Assembly (NCBI GenBank): GCA_013178415.1
Contig: JABLXA010000008.1
Span: 1-64,000 of the forward strand
DNA length: 64,000 nt
Source: Bacillota bacterium
Lineage (GTDB): Bacteria > Bacillota > SHA-98 > Ch115
Direction: 5' to 3'
The translations under genes and the position numbers were made by a program. Shown one piece after another: positions 53,791 through 63,758 of the stretch (positions within the stretch are counted from its first letter, which is position 1; each line of letters begins with the position of its first letter). The notes below the pieces were generated by a model. That model was not told where the DNA came from, did no database searches, and saw nothing but the letters and a program-made list of their open reading frames with translations.

Positions 53791-56022
53791 GTGAGATACG
53801 ACCGAATATTTCAGCTCAAATACACCGCATCTTATCCTCGATCAGATATACAGGATATGGTTTTCTTCCTACCTGAAACTGGAGGAATCCCGCTGCACTT
53901 CTGGCTTATGAGTGATGCGGAAGCCCCCATATTGCAGATCGATGATATCTATTTAAAACCTCGGAGGATTACCAACAGCTCCCCCCGGTGGCTTGATATG
54001 GGGATAACTACGGAAGTTAAAGGAGGCTTTGGGCAGCTTCGTATTATGGGAATGAGCCCGGCCCAGGCCGCTCGGTCTTTTCTTGTAGTTACTCCTCGAA
54101 CCGATCTTGAAATTGGTGGTAAAATCGAGGATGTAGAACGTACCTTGTGGGGGATATCCCGTCAAGATGCCGGGAGTACCGTAATATCTCCATCACATGT
54201 CACCGTCGGACAGCCTGTATCCTTTACGATCCGCTATTTCGCAGGGCCGAAAGGGTTACCTCCAGGAAGCAGGATTCGATTCGCGGTACCACTGGCATTT
54301 TCAGAGCCTCAAAATGAGGCCCCGGAGAGGGAAGGCTTCGTCTCATGCAAGTCCCCTGGGGGATTCCCTATTTCTATTGAATCTATCGGGAGATCCGAGG
54401 AAACACATGAAGCTATTGATATTATATGTTATCTCTCCAAAGGGCTTCCTCCAGGAGAGGGCATCGAGCTCAACTACCGAACAGAAAGGACATATTTATT
54501 TCCCTGTCGTTTTCACGAGGTTGATCGACGGTACTGGTATTCTAAACTTCCACCCCTCAGCGCGGCGGTTGCGGTAGACGAACGGCGCCTCTTTGTCAGC
54601 CTTGCTGAAGGATCTGGGCATATGGTCGAATTTGTTCCGGGCCCTGCGGAACGTCTTCATCTCTTCCTGCCGGGCAGGCGAAAATATGGGAAAGGGCTCA
54701 AGTTGAGAGGTGTGTTTACAGATAAATACAGGAATGTACCGCCTTCAGGTAAGGTGGCCGCTAATATCGAGCTGTTCCTAGTGCAGGGTGATGAAAAAAT
54801 CGCATTGGGCACACCTGCCGGACATTTCCTTGAGCGGCACCGGTTTGAAATTAGTCTGCCTAACCTAAAGCCCGGAGTATACAGGGCAATAGCCTTGGAT
54901 GCTGTAACCCTGGAAACCCTGGCAATAAGCAACCCTTTGGAGATTCTCCCTCGAGGTAGTGAAGAGCCGGAGATCTACTGGGGCGAGATCCACGGTCATA
55001 CTGAGATGAGCGATGGGTGCGGGGGTTTTGTGGAATTATATCGACATGCCCGACATGAAGGGTGTTTGGATTTCGCGGCAGCTGCAGATCATGCATGCTA
55101 TTTCTCTGATAACGAGTGGCAATGGATGCAGGATATAACTAATAGCTGGAATAGGCCAGGGGAGTTTGTCACACTTGTCGGTTATGAATGGGCCGGGACA
55201 CAGGTTCACAGGAACATCTATACATCAAGGGATCGTCTGGACCTTTTTAGAGGCATGTACCCGCCAACAAGTTCAATTCAGACTGTATGGGAACATTTTA
55301 AGGATGATGAGACGATTGTAGCAGGCCCCCATGCTTCTCTTGCTCATGGGTTAATCTGGGAGTTTCATGAACCATCGATAGAGCGCTTTGTTGAGGTTTA
55401 CTCTATGTGGGGAGCGAGTGATTCGCGGGATAATCCGCTGGCTCCTGTAGCGATCAGTCCAAAGGCCATATCTGTAGATGAATTGCTCAAGGGCGGTGCT
55501 CACCTCGGGTTCACCGGGGGCGGGGACTGTCATGAGGGCCATTGCGGCTTTTCATGCGAAGACCCCGAGCGTCAAGGCAAGGTCCCACATACCTTCGCCC
55601 TCCGGCTTGCATATCGCTGCGGGATGACAGCGGCTCTTCTCGAACGGCTGGACAGGGACTCTCTCATCATGGCCCTCCGGCAAAGGAAGACTTATGCCAC
55701 AACCGGGGCGAGGATTCTTCTTTCGTTCTCAGTTTCTGGAATAGCAATGGGGGGACTGGGCCGGACAGATAGTGCAATTGTAAGAGCCTCTGCCCATGGT
55801 TGCGCTCCCATTAAGAGAATGGAAATCATCAAGGATGGTGAAGTGGCTTTTCGCAAAGATGGGGAAGGCCTGGATATCTCTATTGAATGGAGAGACCCTG
55901 AGCCGCCTTCGCGGGAGCACTTCTATTATGTCCGGCTGATTCAGCAGGACAGCCAGATGGCCTGGTCAAGCCCGGTTTGGGTTATGCCTTGTTGCACTGG
56001 TCAAACTGGGTCACAGATATGA
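53791..56022 (+). CDS. DUF3604 (PHP-like) metalloprotein
   Basis: A 743-residue protein. The N-terminal 390 residues look like beta domains. The PHP-like part begins IYWGEIHGHTEMSDGCGG (about residue 397), then FAAAADHACYFSDNEW, LVGYEWAGTQVHRNIY, VAGPHASLAHGLIWEF and FTGGGDCHEGHCGF, giving the set of His, Asp and Glu metal ligands expected of PHP phosphoesterases or hydrolases. A C-terminal beta segment follows. DUF3604 proteins have no well-established substrate. No signal peptide. The ATG region uses GTG 53791 with GGAGGGAGAGGG ahead. Confidence 0.8.
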   Translation: MRYDRIFQLKYTASYPRSDIQDMVFFLPETGGIPLHFWLMSDAEAPILQIDDIYLKPRRITNSSPRWLDMGITTEVKGGFGQLRIMGMSPAQAARSFLVVTPRTDLEIGGKIEDVERTLWGISRQDAGSTVISPSHVTVGQPVSFTIRYFAGPKGLPPGSRIRFAVPLAFSEPQNEAPEREGFVSCKSPGGFPISIESIGRSEETHEAIDIICYLSKGLPPGEGIELNYRTERTYLFPCRFHEVDRRYWYSKLPPLSAAVAVDERRLFVSLAEGSGHMVEFVPGPAERLHLFLPGRRKYGKGLKLRGVFTDKYRNVPPSGKVAANIELFLVQGDEKIALGTPAGHFLERHRFEISLPNLKPGVYRAIALDAVTLETLAISNPLEILPRGSEEPEIYWGEIHGHTEMSDGCGGFVELYRHARHEGCLDFAAAADHACYFSDNEWQWMQDITNSWNRPGEFVTLVGYEWAGTQVHRNIYTSRDRLDLFRGMYPPTSSIQTVWEHFKDDETIVAGPHASLAHGLIWEFHEPSIERFVEVYSMWGASDSRDNPLAPVAISPKAISVDELLKGGAHLGFTGGGDCHEGHCGFSCEDPERQGKVPHTFALRLAYRCGMTAALLERLDRDSLIMALRQRKTYATTGARILLSFSVSGIAMGGLGRTDSAIVRASAHGCAPIKRMEIIKDGEVAFRKDGEGLDISIEWRDPEPPSREHFYYVRLIQQDSQMAWSSPVWVMPCCTGQTGSQI

Positions 56023-56108
56023 GGCCATGCCATGTTTAATATTGTATCCACCAGTTTGTATACAAGAGCCAAGATACTGCGGGTTATGAAATAAGGAGAG
56101 ATAGCGAA

Positions 56109-57551
56109 ATGGAGCGCCCGAATCTAGTGCTGATTACTGTAGATCAGATGCGCGCCGACTGTCTGGGAATAGACGGGCACCCGGTGGTGGAGACGCCCAA
56201 CCTTGATTATATGGCCAGGGAGGGCGTCAGGTTTTCAGCCGCTTACAGCGCTGTCCCTAGTTGTATTGCCGCCAGGGCTGCTATTCTTACCGGGTTACTG
56301 CAAAGGAACCATGGGCGGACAGGGTACCAAGATGGGGTGCCATGGAACTATGAATGTACTTTACCTGGAGAACTGGCCAGGAGCGGGTACCACACTCAAG
56401 GAATAGGAAAAATGCACTTTTACCCGCCCCGGAATCTGTGTGGATTTCATAATGTAGTACTTCATGATGGATATCTTGGATATGTAAGACGCCTCCCTGG
56501 GGACTATTCATACTATGATGATTATACTCCATGGTTAAAAAGGCATTTAAACGCTGATGTTGATTTTGATGACCACGGCCTTGACTGTAATTCCTGGGTC
56601 GCGCGACCCTGGCATTTGCCTGAATACCTGCATCCAACCAACTGGGTGGTAACTCAGTCCATTGATTTTCTTCGAAGACGGGACCCCACCAAACCTTTCT
56701 TTATGTGGGTATCTTTTGTCCGTCCCCATGCACCCCTCGACTCACCTCAGGTGTACTTTGATCAGTATATTGACCAGGAAATACCATTGCCGCCTGTAGG
56801 GGATTGGGCCGACAAAGAGGACAGGGAGAGATATGGCCTTATTCCGCATACGTTGCGGGGCATAATCGGGGAGAAGGCTCTTCACCGGGCACTGGCCGCA
56901 TATTATGCCTTGATCACGCACATAGACCACCAATTGGGGCGCCTTTTTGCGGCTCTGGCAGAACATGGTGTCCTAGATAACACATTCTTCCTCTTCACCT
57001 CAGATCATGGTGAACTTCTCGGAGATCATAATCTATTCCGCAAGGCTTTGCCCTATGAAGGTTCAGCGCGGGTGCCGTTCATTATGAAGTTTCCAAGCAA
57101 TTGGAATGTCCCACGAGGAATCCTGATCGATAAGCCAGTAGAGTTGCGCGATATAATGCCCACAATGCTTGATGTGGCCGGTGTAGAGCCATCGAGGCAG
57201 GTTGATGGGAGGAGTCTGATACCGCTGGTGACAGGCACCAGTAACTCCTGGCGCGAATATATTCATGGGGAACATGCATATGGCCCGGCTTCTAACCATT
57301 TCATGACAAATGGCAAGGAGAAATATATCTGGTTTTCACAGACGGGCCGCGAACAGTATTTCGATCTGGAACGCGACCCTCAAGAGAGACATGATTTGAT
57401 AGGAGATGAATCTCTAAAAGATAGGATTTCATACTGGCGGTCAATCTTAGTCCGCGAACTGGCTGACAGGGAAGAGGGTTATAGCGACGGGTTCCAACTC
57501 ATCCCAGGAAAGACGCCTAGGGCTATCCTCAGTTCTCTTTGCCCTGCGTAG
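56109..57551 (+). CDS. Sulfatase (type I, formylglycine)
   Basis: A 480-residue alkaline-phosphatase-fold sulfatase. NLVLITVDQMRADCLG supplies the first metal Asp, and the catalytic motif is SCIAARAAILTG with Cys52 in C-x-A-x-R, the version converted to formylglycine. FFLFTSDHGELLGDHNLFRKALPYEGSARVPFIMKFPS shows the later DHG metal motif (quoted in part: SDHGELLGDH). There is no signal peptide, so it may act in the cytoplasm on an imported sulfated glycan. ATG 56109 follows AAGGAGAG. An anaerobic sulfatase-maturing enzyme is expected elsewhere. Confidence 0.92.
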   Translation: MERPNLVLITVDQMRADCLGIDGHPVVETPNLDYMAREGVRFSAAYSAVPSCIAARAAILTGLLQRNHGRTGYQDGVPWNYECTLPGELARSGYHTQGIGKMHFYPPRNLCGFHNVVLHDGYLGYVRRLPGDYSYYDDYTPWLKRHLNADVDFDDHGLDCNSWVARPWHLPEYLHPTNWVVTQSIDFLRRRDPTKPFFMWVSFVRPHAPLDSPQVYFDQYIDQEIPLPPVGDWADKEDRERYGLIPHTLRGIIGEKALHRALAAYYALITHIDHQLGRLFAALAEHGVLDNTFFLFTSDHGELLGDHNLFRKALPYEGSARVPFIMKFPSNWNVPRGILIDKPVELRDIMPTMLDVAGVEPSRQVDGRSLIPLVTGTSNSWREYIHGEHAYGPASNHFMTNGKEKYIWFSQTGREQYFDLERDPQERHDLIGDESLKDRISYWRSILVRELADREEGYSDGFQLIPGKTPRAILSSLCPA

Positions 57552-57871
57552 CATAAAATGTCTTTATGGCACCCAGGTTAGATGTCATGGATCTTCACCC
57601 CTTCTTAAGCAGAAAAGGGGTGATGAGGGCGTTGACTTCTCCCAATTGAATGGGAGCAAAGACTGCACCTTGATGAGCGAGATAATGCCATAATCTCCAT
57701 ATAGTCTCCCAATATGGGGGACTGTATGGAGTTGGGGTGACGTTATCATCATCGCTCCTGGCAATCGACTCGGGTATCTCAATGAGAGGTGCCTGCGCGC
57801 GCCCATAGCTCTCTTACCCTCTCCACCAGGGAAGGGGCGCTCTTCTCGATGGACCTTAGGAGGCCCCTTTG
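57552..57871. other. Intergenic with two hairpins
   Basis: Holds the terminator-like stem at 57595-57623 and an imperfect stem around 57697-57730. No gene supported. Confidence 0.45.
57595..57623 (+). terminator. Possible terminator after the sulfatase gene
   Basis: A 9-base perfect stem TCACCCCTT/AAGGGGTGA with an 11-base loop lies 43 bases after the stop. No T-run. Confidence 0.4.
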
Positions 57872-58057
57872 ATGTACACGGAGCCTTATCTATGGACGCC
57901 TGTGAAATTCATTCTCCTCTCAGACCTCCAGCTTAAAGCCCAGGCGCCCACTACGGTAAAGCTCGCAGGGCAACAGGAGGCTGATTTCATCATTTACACT
58001 GGCGACCTTGTGAATACGCCCGGACGTGTTTTTGATGGATTTACTGTAGCCCAATAG
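57872..58057 (+). pseudogene. Calcineurin-like phosphoesterase, N-terminal fragment
   Basis: ATG 57872 follows TAGGAGG by 8 bases. The text FILLSDLQLKAQAPTTVKLA and DFIIYTGDLVNTPGRVFDGF has the D and GD(L/V)xN motifs of metallophosphoesterases. It stops after about 61 residues, where a full protein would need 200 or more. Confidence 0.65.
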
Positions 58058-59146: not shown

Positions 59147-59672
59147 TTATTTGATTCGCTTCAAATGGCGTGTCACCTTCCATGGGAGCCACGCATTTTT
59201 GGGGATGTCGAGTTGTCCGATATCCTTCCCTCGAGCAATAGCACAGAAATTCCTCCTGGTTCTTCTATGGGTTTGATCACCACGGGATCCTTTTGAGGGC
59301 AAAGGCCGCATTTCCCCAGGCTTTACCATGGGATAATCCGACAACGCGCTCGCCAGCTGCAAGTAGGACCTGGCGGCCTCCTATTTCTTTGGAAAGATCG
59401 AGGCATGCTTTGACATAATCCATGCATTCAGCCAATTCTTGCTTATCTCCTGAGGCGATGTTGCCGGGCAAAATCATCACCATATTGGAGACAACATTGG
59501 AGACAACGAGTCCTAGATTCTCTGCAGTGCGCGCCAGGGATCTCCGATCGTCTCCTGTTAGCGTCCAGGGATCCCCCTGCTTTGCTGCAAAGTAGTCTAC
59601 ATGTTTTGCTCCGAGCTTTGCAATGGAATGCATTGCTTCCACGTCACTTCCCAATATTCTGCGGCTTAGCAA
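59147..59672 (-). pseudogene. Sugar phosphate isomerase/epimerase-like TIM barrel, decayed
   Basis: The first piece (59277-59672) reads GAKHVDYFAAKQGDPWTLTG, DDRRSLARTAENLGLVVSNV and VKACLDLSKEIGGRQVLLAA, a xylose-isomerase-like barrel fragment. After KRIPW it stops; related text (VIKPIEEPGG) continues in another frame and a third ends at 59147. At least two frameshifts and a lost N-terminus. Confidence 0.65.
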
Positions 59673-59884
59673 TACAACGGGCCTTGACCTTCCCTCGAGG
59701 GTTTCCGAATAATATCGGCAATTGAGAATAATCTATTAATTAAAAGGAATCTGGGTTCCCTCTTGCAATAACTAGATTAGATGCCTGTGACCGTTGTTAT
59801 ATTCTGCCTGTAGCTATTCAAGGGAGGTGATCAATACTCGCAGATCAAGGTGGCCAGGTTTTGCAGAAAGGAGGTTGTCTAATA

Positions 59885-60379
59885 GTGGGGAATCCCTTGA
59901 GGCATCTTCTAGCCATATTGCTCATAGTGATTCTGAGCATTTGTTTCGCTGGCCTTGCCCTGTCGCAAGGGTCGGAAGATGAGGATGTGATTTCGGATTT
60001 AAAGGCTCAAATCGAAGACCTCAATATTCGTCTTGAGGCCGCAATAGCTCTCGCAGAAAGTCTTCAGGAGCAGCGACTCAAGGATATTAAGAAGTATGAG
60101 GAGCAGATCAATAGTCTAAAGGCTGAACTGGAAGATATGGGCGTTCGGCTGGAAGCAGCCGCAGCTTTGGCCGATTCGTATGCAGAACAACTGCAAAAGG
60201 TGACGGAAAAGTATGAAAGTCAGATCGCCGAATTCAAACAGACAGTAGAGGACCTGGAGGTACGTCTTGGGGCTGCCACCGAACTCAGCATAAGCCTTCA
60301 AGAGATGATTGATAAACTTAAGGCTCAATATGAGGCAAAGATTGCTGAGCTACAGGGACAGCCAAAATCGGAAAGGTGA
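59885..60379 (+). CDS. Secreted coiled-coil protein with three 39-residue repeats
   Basis: From GTG 59885 (AAAGGAGG 10 bases ahead) a signal peptide, HLLAILLIVILSICFAGLALS, is followed by a charged helix to the end. The helix is three repeats of about 39 residues, each starting (I/L/V)ED(L/M)xVRLEAA or the like and ending near KYEEQI, KYESQI or QYEAKI. Heptads of Leu/Ala predict a coiled coil of about 115 residues. No known domain. It ends 38 bases before the ABC binding protein start, so it is in the same operon and may help assemble or tether the importer. About 164 residues. Confidence 0.75.
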   Translation: MGNPLRHLLAILLIVILSICFAGLALSQGSEDEDVISDLKAQIEDLNIRLEAAIALAESLQEQRLKDIKKYEEQINSLKAELEDMGVRLEAAAALADSYAEQLQKVTEKYESQIAEFKQTVEDLEVRLGAATELSISLQEMIDKLKAQYEAKIAELQGQPKSER

Positions 60380-60417
60380 TTTCATTCCAAATTGAAATAC
60401 GGGGAGGAGATGAGTTT

Positions 60418-61827
60418 ATGTTGGTGAGGCGCGGTAAGTTGTCCAGGATTCTGGCCTTCGTGTTTATCTTTGCTTTGCTCCTTTCCATTGGTGTAGCCGG
60501 GTTTGCTGCTACAAAGAAGACAAAGGTTATCATCTGGGGGCTTAACACAACAGTCCCGGGCGGGGCTCAAGAACTGGCAAAGCAGATAAAGGAAAAGTTT
60601 TCAGACATCGATCTAGTTCCTCAGGTCCAGGTGGCAGGAGCAGGTCAGACCCTTGAGAGCATGCAAAAACTTCTTACGGCCATAGCGGCGGGCAATCCAC
60701 CGGAAATCACGACAATTGACCGGTTCGTTGTCGGTGGATGGGCGGCTCGTGGTGCTCTCAGACCGTTGGATGATCTTATCGAAAGAGACAAGGTAGACCT
60801 TTCCCAGTGGTACCCGGTTTGTCTGGATGAAGCCAAATTCAATGGCAAGGTCTACGCAATGTCTTCAGGAACTGATGACCGGGCAATGTATTACAATCGG
60901 GAACTCATGAGAGAGGCTGGCATGAATCCAGATGCGCCGCCAAAAACATGGGATGAATTGATGGAAGCGGCTAAGAAATTGACGGTAACAGACTCGCGAG
61001 GTAATCTCAAGCAAATCGGGTTTATCCCCATGTTTGGCAACAGCTGGCTGTATCTCTATGGGTGGCAAAATGGCGGCGAATTTTTGTCTGAGGATGGTAA
61101 GACTGCGACTCTCAATGATCCTAAGATCGTTGAGGCTATCGAGTGGATTGTTTCTGTGTATGATGCTCTAGGTGGCGCGGAGAAGATTCAAGGATTCCAG
61201 GCATCTTTCCAGCCTGGCGCCCAGGATCCATTTCTTACTGGGAAGGTTGCTCTGATGATAAATGGCAACTGGGTACTTAATACCATAGCCCGCTATAGGC
61301 CCGACATCGATTTTGCCGTCGCCCCGGCCCCTGTGCCAAAGAAACGTTACCTACAGGAGGGAGAATTCAAGGGTAAGCCTCAATTCATCACCTGGTCTGG
61401 GGGGTGGGCGTGGGCAATTCCCAGGGGGGTTAAGAATGTAGATGCGGCCTGGAAAGTTATTAAGTTCATGACAGGGGTCGAAGGCCATCTGGCAATCGCT
61501 AAGGGTGACTATGAGTATAATAAATCACTTGGGAATCCATATGTGCCTGGGATGACTTCACTCAAACCTGCTGACAAAGCTCTAGCAGAAAAATATCTTC
61601 CGCTTCTTCAGAGGGAAAGCTTGAGGAAAGCCTATCAAGTATTTAGTGATCTGATGAAGGTAAGCCGATATCGGCCGGTGACTCCAGTGGCTTCGGAGCT
61701 TTGGACTGAACACGTAAGAGTTGTAGACCTCGCCATATTCCATAAGATGACTCCAAAAGAGGCGGCTGACTTCTGTAATGCCAACGTTCAGAAGGCGCTT
61801 GATACTTTCTGGAAGAGCAGAAAATAG
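60418..61827 (+). CDS. ABC transporter sugar-binding protein (family 1)
   Basis: About 469 residues. The signal peptide ILAFVFIFALLLSIGVAGFA is cleaved near GFAA-TKK. The text contains MQKLLTAIAAGNPPEITTIDRF, ARGALRPLDDLIERDKVDL, AMYYNRELMREAGMNPDAPPKTWDELMEAAKKL (in parts) and GKVALMINGNWVLNTIARY, the family 1 marks. No lipobox. ATG 60418 lies after GGGGAGGAG. It follows the coiled-coil gene and precedes two permeases. Confidence 0.92.
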   Translation: MLVRRGKLSRILAFVFIFALLLSIGVAGFAATKKTKVIIWGLNTTVPGGAQELAKQIKEKFSDIDLVPQVQVAGAGQTLESMQKLLTAIAAGNPPEITTIDRFVVGGWAARGALRPLDDLIERDKVDLSQWYPVCLDEAKFNGKVYAMSSGTDDRAMYYNRELMREAGMNPDAPPKTWDELMEAAKKLTVTDSRGNLKQIGFIPMFGNSWLYLYGWQNGGEFLSEDGKTATLNDPKIVEAIEWIVSVYDALGGAEKIQGFQASFQPGAQDPFLTGKVALMINGNWVLNTIARYRPDIDFAVAPAPVPKKRYLQEGEFKGKPQFITWSGGWAWAIPRGVKNVDAAWKVIKFMTGVEGHLAIAKGDYEYNKSLGNPYVPGMTSLKPADKALAEKYLPLLQRESLRKAYQVFSDLMKVSRYRPVTPVASELWTEHVRVVDLAIFHKMTPKEAADFCNANVQKALDTFWKSRK

Positions 61828-61934
61828 GTGACTAGTTCGATGTGGTGGCACGGACGATTCACCACAGGTCCGTGCCCCATTTGGATGGCCTTGGTGAGAG
61901 ATGCCTATCGAGATCTTCACTAGAGGTGATGAGG

Positions 61935-62858
61935 ATGACCAATAGGCCTATGCTGGCACATAGTTCTGGCCGCCTCAGGAGGGCCGAGATTAGGGCCGGG
62001 GTGCTTTTTGCATCGCCATGGATGGCAGGGTTTCTCTTATTTACCCTCGGTCCGCTGGTGGCGTCCATATGGCTGAGCATGACACAGTATGATGTTTTAA
62101 CACCCCCAAGGTTTGTTGGTCTTGACAACTATAGGAACATCATATTAGCAGATCGTCTATTCTATAAGTCACTTTACAATACGTTGTATATCACAGTCTT
62201 TGGGGTCCCAGCCAACATTTTGATGGGGCTCGGCATAGCCATGCTTCTCAATCTTAAGGTGAAAGGCATGCATTTCTATAGAACCATATACTATCTGCCT
62301 TCCATTGTACCCACGGTGGCTAGCGCGATACTGTGGATGTGGTTGTTGAACCCCCAATTCGGTCTAATAAACGCGGCGCTTTCTCTTCTAGGAATAAGCG
62401 GGCCAGCCTGGTTATCAAGTGAGGCATGGTCGAAGCCATCCATAATCCTCATGGGCTTGTGGGGCGCCGGAGGAAGTATGGTCATATACCTGGCAGGATT
62501 GAAGGGGATTCCTGAACAGCTTTACGAGGCTGCAGAGATTGATGGCGCAGGGATCTGGGCCAAGTTCTTCAAGATCACTCTCCCTATGCTGACACCTACC
62601 CTTTTCTTCAACCTTATAATGGGCATCATTGGACACCTTCAGATTTTCGCTCAAGCCTATATCATGACAGGCGGGGGGCCGGTGGATTCCACGCTTTTCT
62701 ATGTGTATTACCTTTTCAATAACGCCTTCGCATATTTCAAAATGGGCTATGCCTCGGCCCTGGCCTGGATACTCTTTCTAATAATCTTGGTCATCACCCT
62801 AATTCAATTCCATTTTGCCAACAGGTGGGTCTACTACGAAGGCGCGGAAAGGGGTTGA
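61935..62858 (+). CDS. ABC sugar permease, MalF/UgpA type
   Basis: Six membrane segments. The EAA loop is LYEAAEIDGAGIWAKFFKIT followed by LPMLTP; later FAQAYIMTGGGPVDST and YLFNNAFAYFKMGYASALAW. ATG 61935 has AGAGGTG 6 bases ahead; ATG 61929 abuts it and longer starts add atypical residues. It works with the adjacent MalG-type permease. No ATPase encoded nearby. Confidence 0.93.
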   Translation: MTNRPMLAHSSGRLRRAEIRAGVLFASPWMAGFLLFTLGPLVASIWLSMTQYDVLTPPRFVGLDNYRNIILADRLFYKSLYNTLYITVFGVPANILMGLGIAMLLNLKVKGMHFYRTIYYLPSIVPTVASAILWMWLLNPQFGLINAALSLLGISGPAWLSSEAWSKPSIILMGLWGAGGSMVIYLAGLKGIPEQLYEAAEIDGAGIWAKFFKITLPMLTPTLFFNLIMGIIGHLQIFAQAYIMTGGGPVDSTLFYVYYLFNNAFAYFKMGYASALAWILFLIILVITLIQFHFANRWVYYEGAERG

Positions 62859-62864
62859 TCCTTT

Positions 62865-63758
62865 TTGAATACTACTCCTGCCATTGGCACGGGATCTATA
62901 CAGATTGACACCCGGTGGAGAATTAGAAAACGCAGAAGAGAAATGGTGGTGCAAATCGTCTCCCATACCGTGCTCATTATTGGAGCCGTGCTGTTTGTTT
63001 TTCCATTCCTATGGCTTGTGTCTACCTCATTGAAACCAGATACCCAGATATTTCTCTTCCCACCGACACTGATCCCGAGGCCTTTCAACTGGCGGAACTA
63101 CTCCAGGATGTTTACATATTTGCCATTTACCCTGTTTTACTGGAATACCATATATATTACTGCTCTTACAGTCTTTGGAACCTTCATATCTTGTTCATTG
63201 GTGGCCTACTCCTTTGCGCGCCTCAGATGGCCCGGGAGGGATCTTTGTTTCATTATAATGCTGAGCACCATGATGCTGCCGCCTCAGGTTACCATGATAC
63301 CGATCTATCTGGTCTTCAAGTATATGGGTTGGATAGACACATTCAAACCTCTTACTGTGCCCGCATTCTTCGGAAATGCATTCTCAATCTTCCTTTTGAG
63401 GCAGTTTTACATGACCATACCATGGGAATTGGATGATGCAGCAAAGATCGACGGGTGTAGTTTCTTCCAAATCTACTGGCGAATAATGCTTCCCCTTGTA
63501 AAGCCTGCTCTGGCGACGATAACCATATTTACATTTCAGGGACAGTGGAATAACTTTTTAGGGCCTCTCATCTATATCAATTCCACTGAAAAGATGCCTC
63601 TTGCGCTCGCCCTTCGACTCTTTCAGACTATGTACGGATCAGAGTGGGGACTCCTGATGGCGGCATCCACCGCTATGACATTGCCTTTGGTTATCACCTT
63701 TTTCTTCTGTCAGAAGTACTTCATTCAGGGCATAACTCTAACAGGACTCAAAGGGTAG
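62865..63758 (+). CDS. ABC sugar permease, MalG/UgpE type
   Basis: Six segments. The N-terminal region is polar and Arg-rich (RIRKRRREMVVQIV), the EAA loop is LDDAAKIDGCSFFQIYWRI followed by MLPLVKPALATI, and the end is KYFIQGITLTGLKG. The TTG at 62865 has GAAAGGGG upstream and lies 6 bases after the previous stop. It closes the operon. Close in form to the permease at 30548. Confidence 0.92.
   Translation: MNTTPAIGTGSIQIDTRWRIRKRRREMVVQIVSHTVLIIGAVLFVFPFLWLVSTSLKPDTQIFLFPPTLIPRPFNWRNYSRMFTYLPFTLFYWNTIYITALTVFGTFISCSLVAYSFARLRWPGRDLCFIIMLSTMMLPPQVTMIPIYLVFKYMGWIDTFKPLTVPAFFGNAFSIFLLRQFYMTIPWELDDAAKIDGCSFFQIYWRIMLPLVKPALATITIFTFQGQWNNFLGPLIYINSTEKMPLALALRLFQTMYGSEWGLLMAASTAMTLPLVITFFFCQKYFIQGITLTGLKG

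Follow-up and report, generated by a model that had tools for sequence, protein, structure and literature searches.

A predicted exported coiled-coil protein with three 39-residue repeats, encoded next to an ABC importer cluster in a member of the Bacillota

The coiled-coil gene and its neighborhood

The gene at positions 59885 to 60379 of the window (the whole 64,000-nucleotide stretch of DNA that was analyzed) is an uninterrupted plus-strand frame that runs from a GTG start to one stop and translates into a product of 164 residues. An earlier sequence-only reading had given exactly these coordinates and described the product as a secreted coiled coil of three 39-residue heptad repeats within an ABC sugar-importer operon. 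The gene is followed on the same strand by those for a solute-binding protein and two permeases. The features of this region are as follows:

59673 to 59884: intergenic interval that separates a minus-strand fragment from the coiled-coil gene; likely location of a putative promoter
59867 to 59874, plus strand: ribosome-binding site AAAGGAGG of the coiled-coil gene (sequence)
59885 to 60379, plus strand: gene for the predicted exported coiled-coil protein, 164 amino acids and stop, GTG start (translation, repeat conservation)
59885 to 59968, plus strand: putative N-terminal signal, residues 1 to 28, without a lipobox (sequence, lipobox pattern, model helix 4-27)
59987 to 60103, plus strand: 39-residue repeat 1 (self-comparison, invariant columns, repeat profile)
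60104 to 60220, plus strand: 39-residue repeat 2 (same evidence)
60221 to 60337, plus strand: 39-residue repeat 3, followed by a 13-residue tail (same evidence)
60418 to 61827, plus strand: family 1 solute-binding protein, 469 amino acids, Sec-type signal, without a lipobox (PF01547, 5.5e-34)
61842 to 62858, plus strand: ABC permease 1 (PF00528, 3.4e-17); true start possibly further in
62865 to 63758, plus strand: ABC permease 2 (PF00528, 8e-17)

The coiled-coil gene is separated from the ATG of the binding-protein gene (60418) by 38 bases (60380 to 60417) and shares its direction, as the sequence-only reading had noted. Good ribosome sites precede both genes. No plus-strand terminator-like site is found between 59600 and 60600, an interval with one promoter-like site, which is at chance level, and the 38-base gap folds no better than its shuffles (z 0.24). 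The lack of a terminator and the unremarkable folding of the gap suggest that the coiled-coil gene is probably the first of the importer set, and its co-transcription with the importer is likely.

With two permeases and a family 1 binding protein of the ordinary kind, the adjoining genes are like those of CUT1-type carbohydrate ABC importers. Among PDB chains, the binding protein is closest to 4r9f, “MBP1” (1.9e-41), so that its substrate is probably a carbohydrate. Downstream of the permeases are a frame for a helix-turn-helix regulator and a long frame that, by eye, reads like a family 2 glycosidase, and no ATPase gene was recognized by eye among the listed downstream frames of at least 150 residues.

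Several other genes and gene-like pieces are found nearby. The minus-strand frame at 59277 to 59672, adjoining the coiled-coil gene, encodes 131 residues of a TIM barrel resembling that of xylose isomerase and looks truncated; its match to PF01261 (2.4e-6, below the family cut-off) covers profile positions 4 to 110 of 249. A 62-residue plus-strand frame (57869 to 58057) resembles, by eye, the start of a metallophosphoesterase, has no Pfam match and is possibly gene debris. Genes for a DUF3604 protein and then a sulfatase with an SGSH_C domain (53791 to 57551) hint at the use of sulfated glycans nearby. A second, related importer of the same genome is encoded on the opposite strand, 12 kb further downstream (G000:C8:73268-74542; L044, 15266-16555), adjoining genes that by eye look like those for a LacI-like regulator and an aldo-keto reductase. 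Elsewhere, a family 1 binding-protein match with one in-frame TAG (G000:C11:82425-83279) might be a pseudogene.

Repeat structure and predicted fold

Residues 1 to 28 of the product look like a Sec signal, judged from sequence features; an uncleaved membrane anchor is the alternative. By eye, residues 8 to 26 form a hydrophobic stretch of about 19 residues, which is a membrane-spanning length, and a candidate A-L-S cleavage site at residue 28 is followed by Q-G. The lipobox pattern is absent from the first 40 residues, no wall-binding domain above cut-off is recognized in the Pfam scan, and the protein has no second membrane helix. Past the signal, the sequence is rich in E, A, L, K, and Q, contains 31 acidic and 17 basic residues, and ends in PKSER.

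Comparison of the protein with itself gives a score of 176 at an offset of 39 residues. The best scores over offsets 20 to 59 reached maxima of 60 among 2,000 composition shuffles and 54 among 2,000 heptad-preserving shuffles. The three repeats share 21, 16, and 17 of 39 residues in the pairwise comparisons (63, 52, and 62 of 117 bases), with 14 columns invariant across all three. The three diverged 39-residue repeats of the sequence-only reading are thus real, but they are not pure heptads, since 39 cannot be divided by 7. The strongest hydrophobic period is 3.54, a value inside the range of 3.5 to 3.64 expected of a long coiled-coil helix. It equals 39/11, so that each unit fits four heptads and one hendecad (11-residue step) in an uninterrupted helix.

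Between the repeats, pS is saturated (0.78 to 0.90) and pN is 0.36 to 0.46, whereas 200 random codon pairings give a pN that averages 0.69 and never falls below 0.549. Since protein identity between the repeats has outlasted the silent sites, this is a translated gene on which selection acts; by this sequence measure, the copies arose long ago and selection has maintained the protein. This conservation at the protein level only is at odds with 59885 to 60379 being a compositionally biased frame that is open by chance, as are the ribosome site, the signal sequence and the codon-position G+C pattern (0.65/0.31/0.48; 0.56/0.41/0.51 in the binding-protein gene). Such a frame would account for the lack of homologues in any search but is extremely improbable as an explanation of this gene.

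The single-sequence AlphaFold2 model (mean pLDDT 87.2, pTM 0.42) has helices at residues 4 to 27 and 33 to 157. The latter is one continuous 125-residue helix in an all-helical model without strands, a single-chain prediction that does not extend to oligomers. The rise of an α-helix is 0.15 nm per residue, and at this textbook value the long helix would measure about 19 nm. Its chains would be expected to pair with each other, and the product is very probably an exported coiled-coil rod.

Phyletic distribution and recurrence beside binding proteins

A profile of the repeat, run against 17 genomes of the class, matches only the source genome, with one hit on each of the three repeats. Comparison of the whole protein with the genome contigs gives 146 pattern stretches and no relative, and none is found among plasmids or solved structures. 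Searches of 61 genomes (own included) return the protein itself and one weak match (8.1e-4), and 12 of 398 genomes of the phylum, own included, have matches at an E value of 0.001 or less when nine candidates per genome are scored. The 11 matches outside the source genome (1.8e-5 to 9.5e-4, 19 to 32% identity) lie in frames of 298 to 1197 residues, except for one in a 152-residue frame, and were judged to be coiled-coil noise rather than homologues. The Pfam and NCBIfam matches shown for the protein are likewise noise: all fall below the curated cut-offs, and most belong to functionally unrelated coiled-coil families. On the best reading of these searches, the gene is a lineage-restricted orphan. 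With no relative in any searched genome except its own, a functional link to the importer is without comparative support.

The sequence-only reading had offered recurrence beside importers as the test of such a link. For this, 183 binding-protein loci (160 non-overlapping clusters) were scanned on both strands; they are the near-top matches of each search and not a random sample of binding proteins. Most carry 1.5 to 1.6 kb of upstream sequence, with a few shorter ones at contig ends (L010, L027, and L136). Export signal and coiled coil were recognized by composition thresholds of our own and not by a trained predictor. By this filter, 59885 to 60379 is the only small gene beside a binding protein, among the 183 loci, to combine the two. 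Within this best-match sample and filter, the outcome is negative, which the sequence-only reading had named as refuting. Nothing comparable is found at the source genome's 12 further loci for binding proteins (L044 to L055), and the paralogous importer 12 kb away (L044) has no small exported coiled coil on either strand. By eye, the remaining rows of the scan are the tails of permeases, frames on the antisense strand, one helix-turn-helix regulator and some further frames away from binding proteins. This importer differs from the other loci sampled in having a coiled-coil gene adjoining its binding protein. No such gene is a known component of CUT1 importers, and the literature listings searched contain no report of a comparable coiled coil that assists a sugar importer. 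On the best reading, the protein is dispensable for such importers generally.

The closest homologues of the binding protein within the class (in G005, G008, and G009) have a gene for a 212-residue exported protein directly upstream (L056, 5729-6367; L057, 7351-7989; and L058). This protein, which has no Pfam match in the two of three copies scanned, does not read as a coiled coil and was rejected as a counterpart of the coiled-coil gene. Upstream of it, G005 encodes an exported protein that matches Glucodextran_C, and an exported protein is found at that position in G008 and G009 as well.

The lack of homologues and of recurrence would also fit an orphan exported coiled coil with an unrelated envelope role, brought before the importer by the chance of rearrangement, and the gene-like fragments upstream, such as the 131-residue piece at 59277 to 59672, are a sign of rearrangement. 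However, the shared strand, the 38-base gap and the lack of a plus-strand terminator-like site between the genes speak against chance placement, which is possible but doubtful. We tentatively prefer a lineage-restricted exported coiled coil, derived from a triplicated helical unit, that is made together with the importer as its accessory. The functional tie to the importer, to which adjacency alone points, is itself tentative, somewhat more so than this reading as a whole.

Cell envelope and possible function

The source genome contains Spo0A_C (9.8e-42) along with the outer-membrane marks Omp85 (4.1e-51) and LpxC (5.7e-84), an OmpH (PF03938) protein encoded next to Omp85 (2.7e-22), and SLH-domain genes elsewhere. 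From these genes, it most likely represents a member of the Bacillota that encodes an outer membrane. None of the 13 binding proteins of this genome that were examined shows a lipobox pattern close to the N terminus; a homologue in G080 has one. The outer-membrane genes and the missing lipobox suggest that the binding protein and the coiled coil are probably both periplasmic, the former in soluble form. With the binding protein probably free in the periplasm, a Gram-positive-style wall tether becomes unlikely. Of the sequence-only reading, what stands is an exported coiled coil encoded first in a same-strand cluster with PF01547 and two PF00528 genes. Its proposal that the protein may tether the importer to the wall or space the binding protein from the membrane finds no support: the arrangement does not recur among the loci scanned, and the coiled coil lacks a lipobox, a wall-binding domain above cut-off and a second membrane helix.

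The rod could instead be anchored in the inner membrane by an uncleaved N terminus, with the 19-nm helix docking the soluble binding protein or concentrating it close to the permease; of the alternatives, this comes nearest to the spacer of the sequence-only reading. The membrane-spanning length of the hydrophobic stretch would fit this, as would a binding protein that has no lipobox and carries small insertions; several of these, of about 4 to 9 residues, are absent from 13 aligned relatives. Such anchoring is nevertheless unlikely, given the plausible A-L-S cleavage site before Q-G, the equally long hydrophobic stretch of the binding protein itself and the lack of recurrence beside importers. 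More improbable still is a dedicated rod: in a member of the Bacillota that is diderm and whose binding proteins are soluble, a single importer would have gained a 19-nm coiled coil of its own to keep its binding protein near the permease, as a species-specific substitute for the lipid anchor of Gram-positive relatives.

The protein shares individual traits with several known envelope proteins. Braun's lipoprotein Lpp is a small exported coiled coil of repeat-derived sequence with a terminal lysine for linkage to the wall. The product of 59885 to 60379 is similar in size class, predicted export and repeat origin but has no lipobox, would form a far longer rod and ends in PKSER, without a terminal lysine. 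Skp/OmpH (PF03938) is likewise small, exported and largely helical. Together with the outer-membrane genes of the source genome, this similarity in size, predicted export and helical content might point to a periplasmic chaperone for the importer or for an outer-membrane protein. That possibility is largely refuted and very remote: PF03938 is absent from the best 25 of 26 Pfam matches (E values up to 0.1), the genome has its true OmpH beside Omp85, and the model contains no strands for a Skp-type body. The triple 39-residue repeat is a further difference. Finally, OmpM, an outer-membrane tether of diderm Firmicutes, is described as having an N-terminal SLH domain, a periplasmic coiled-coil stalk and a C-terminal β-barrel (PMC10628300). 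The protein resembles OmpM in being a probably periplasmic coiled coil of diderm Bacillota but has no SLH domain among the families shown and, in its all-helical model, no C-terminal β-barrel.

In the preferred reading of an accessory made with the importer, the protein would have grown long ago by the tripling of a helical unit of 39 residues (four heptads and a hendecad), and it would be exported by Sec and pair with itself into a rod in the periplasm of a diderm member of the Bacillota. Made together with the importer, it may act as a structural or scaffolding component that is optional for uptake, expressed while the sugar of this importer is in use. The envelope type needs to be settled ahead of any proposal of a wall tether, and the insertions of the binding protein are the first place to look for docking. 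The gene clearly illustrates how an orphan can be assembled from copies of a single helical unit and maintained by selection at the protein level. If the link to the importer is true, a very common type of sugar uptake system would have an accessory of a new kind, and the gene would offer a case in which to examine how newly formed genes enter operons.
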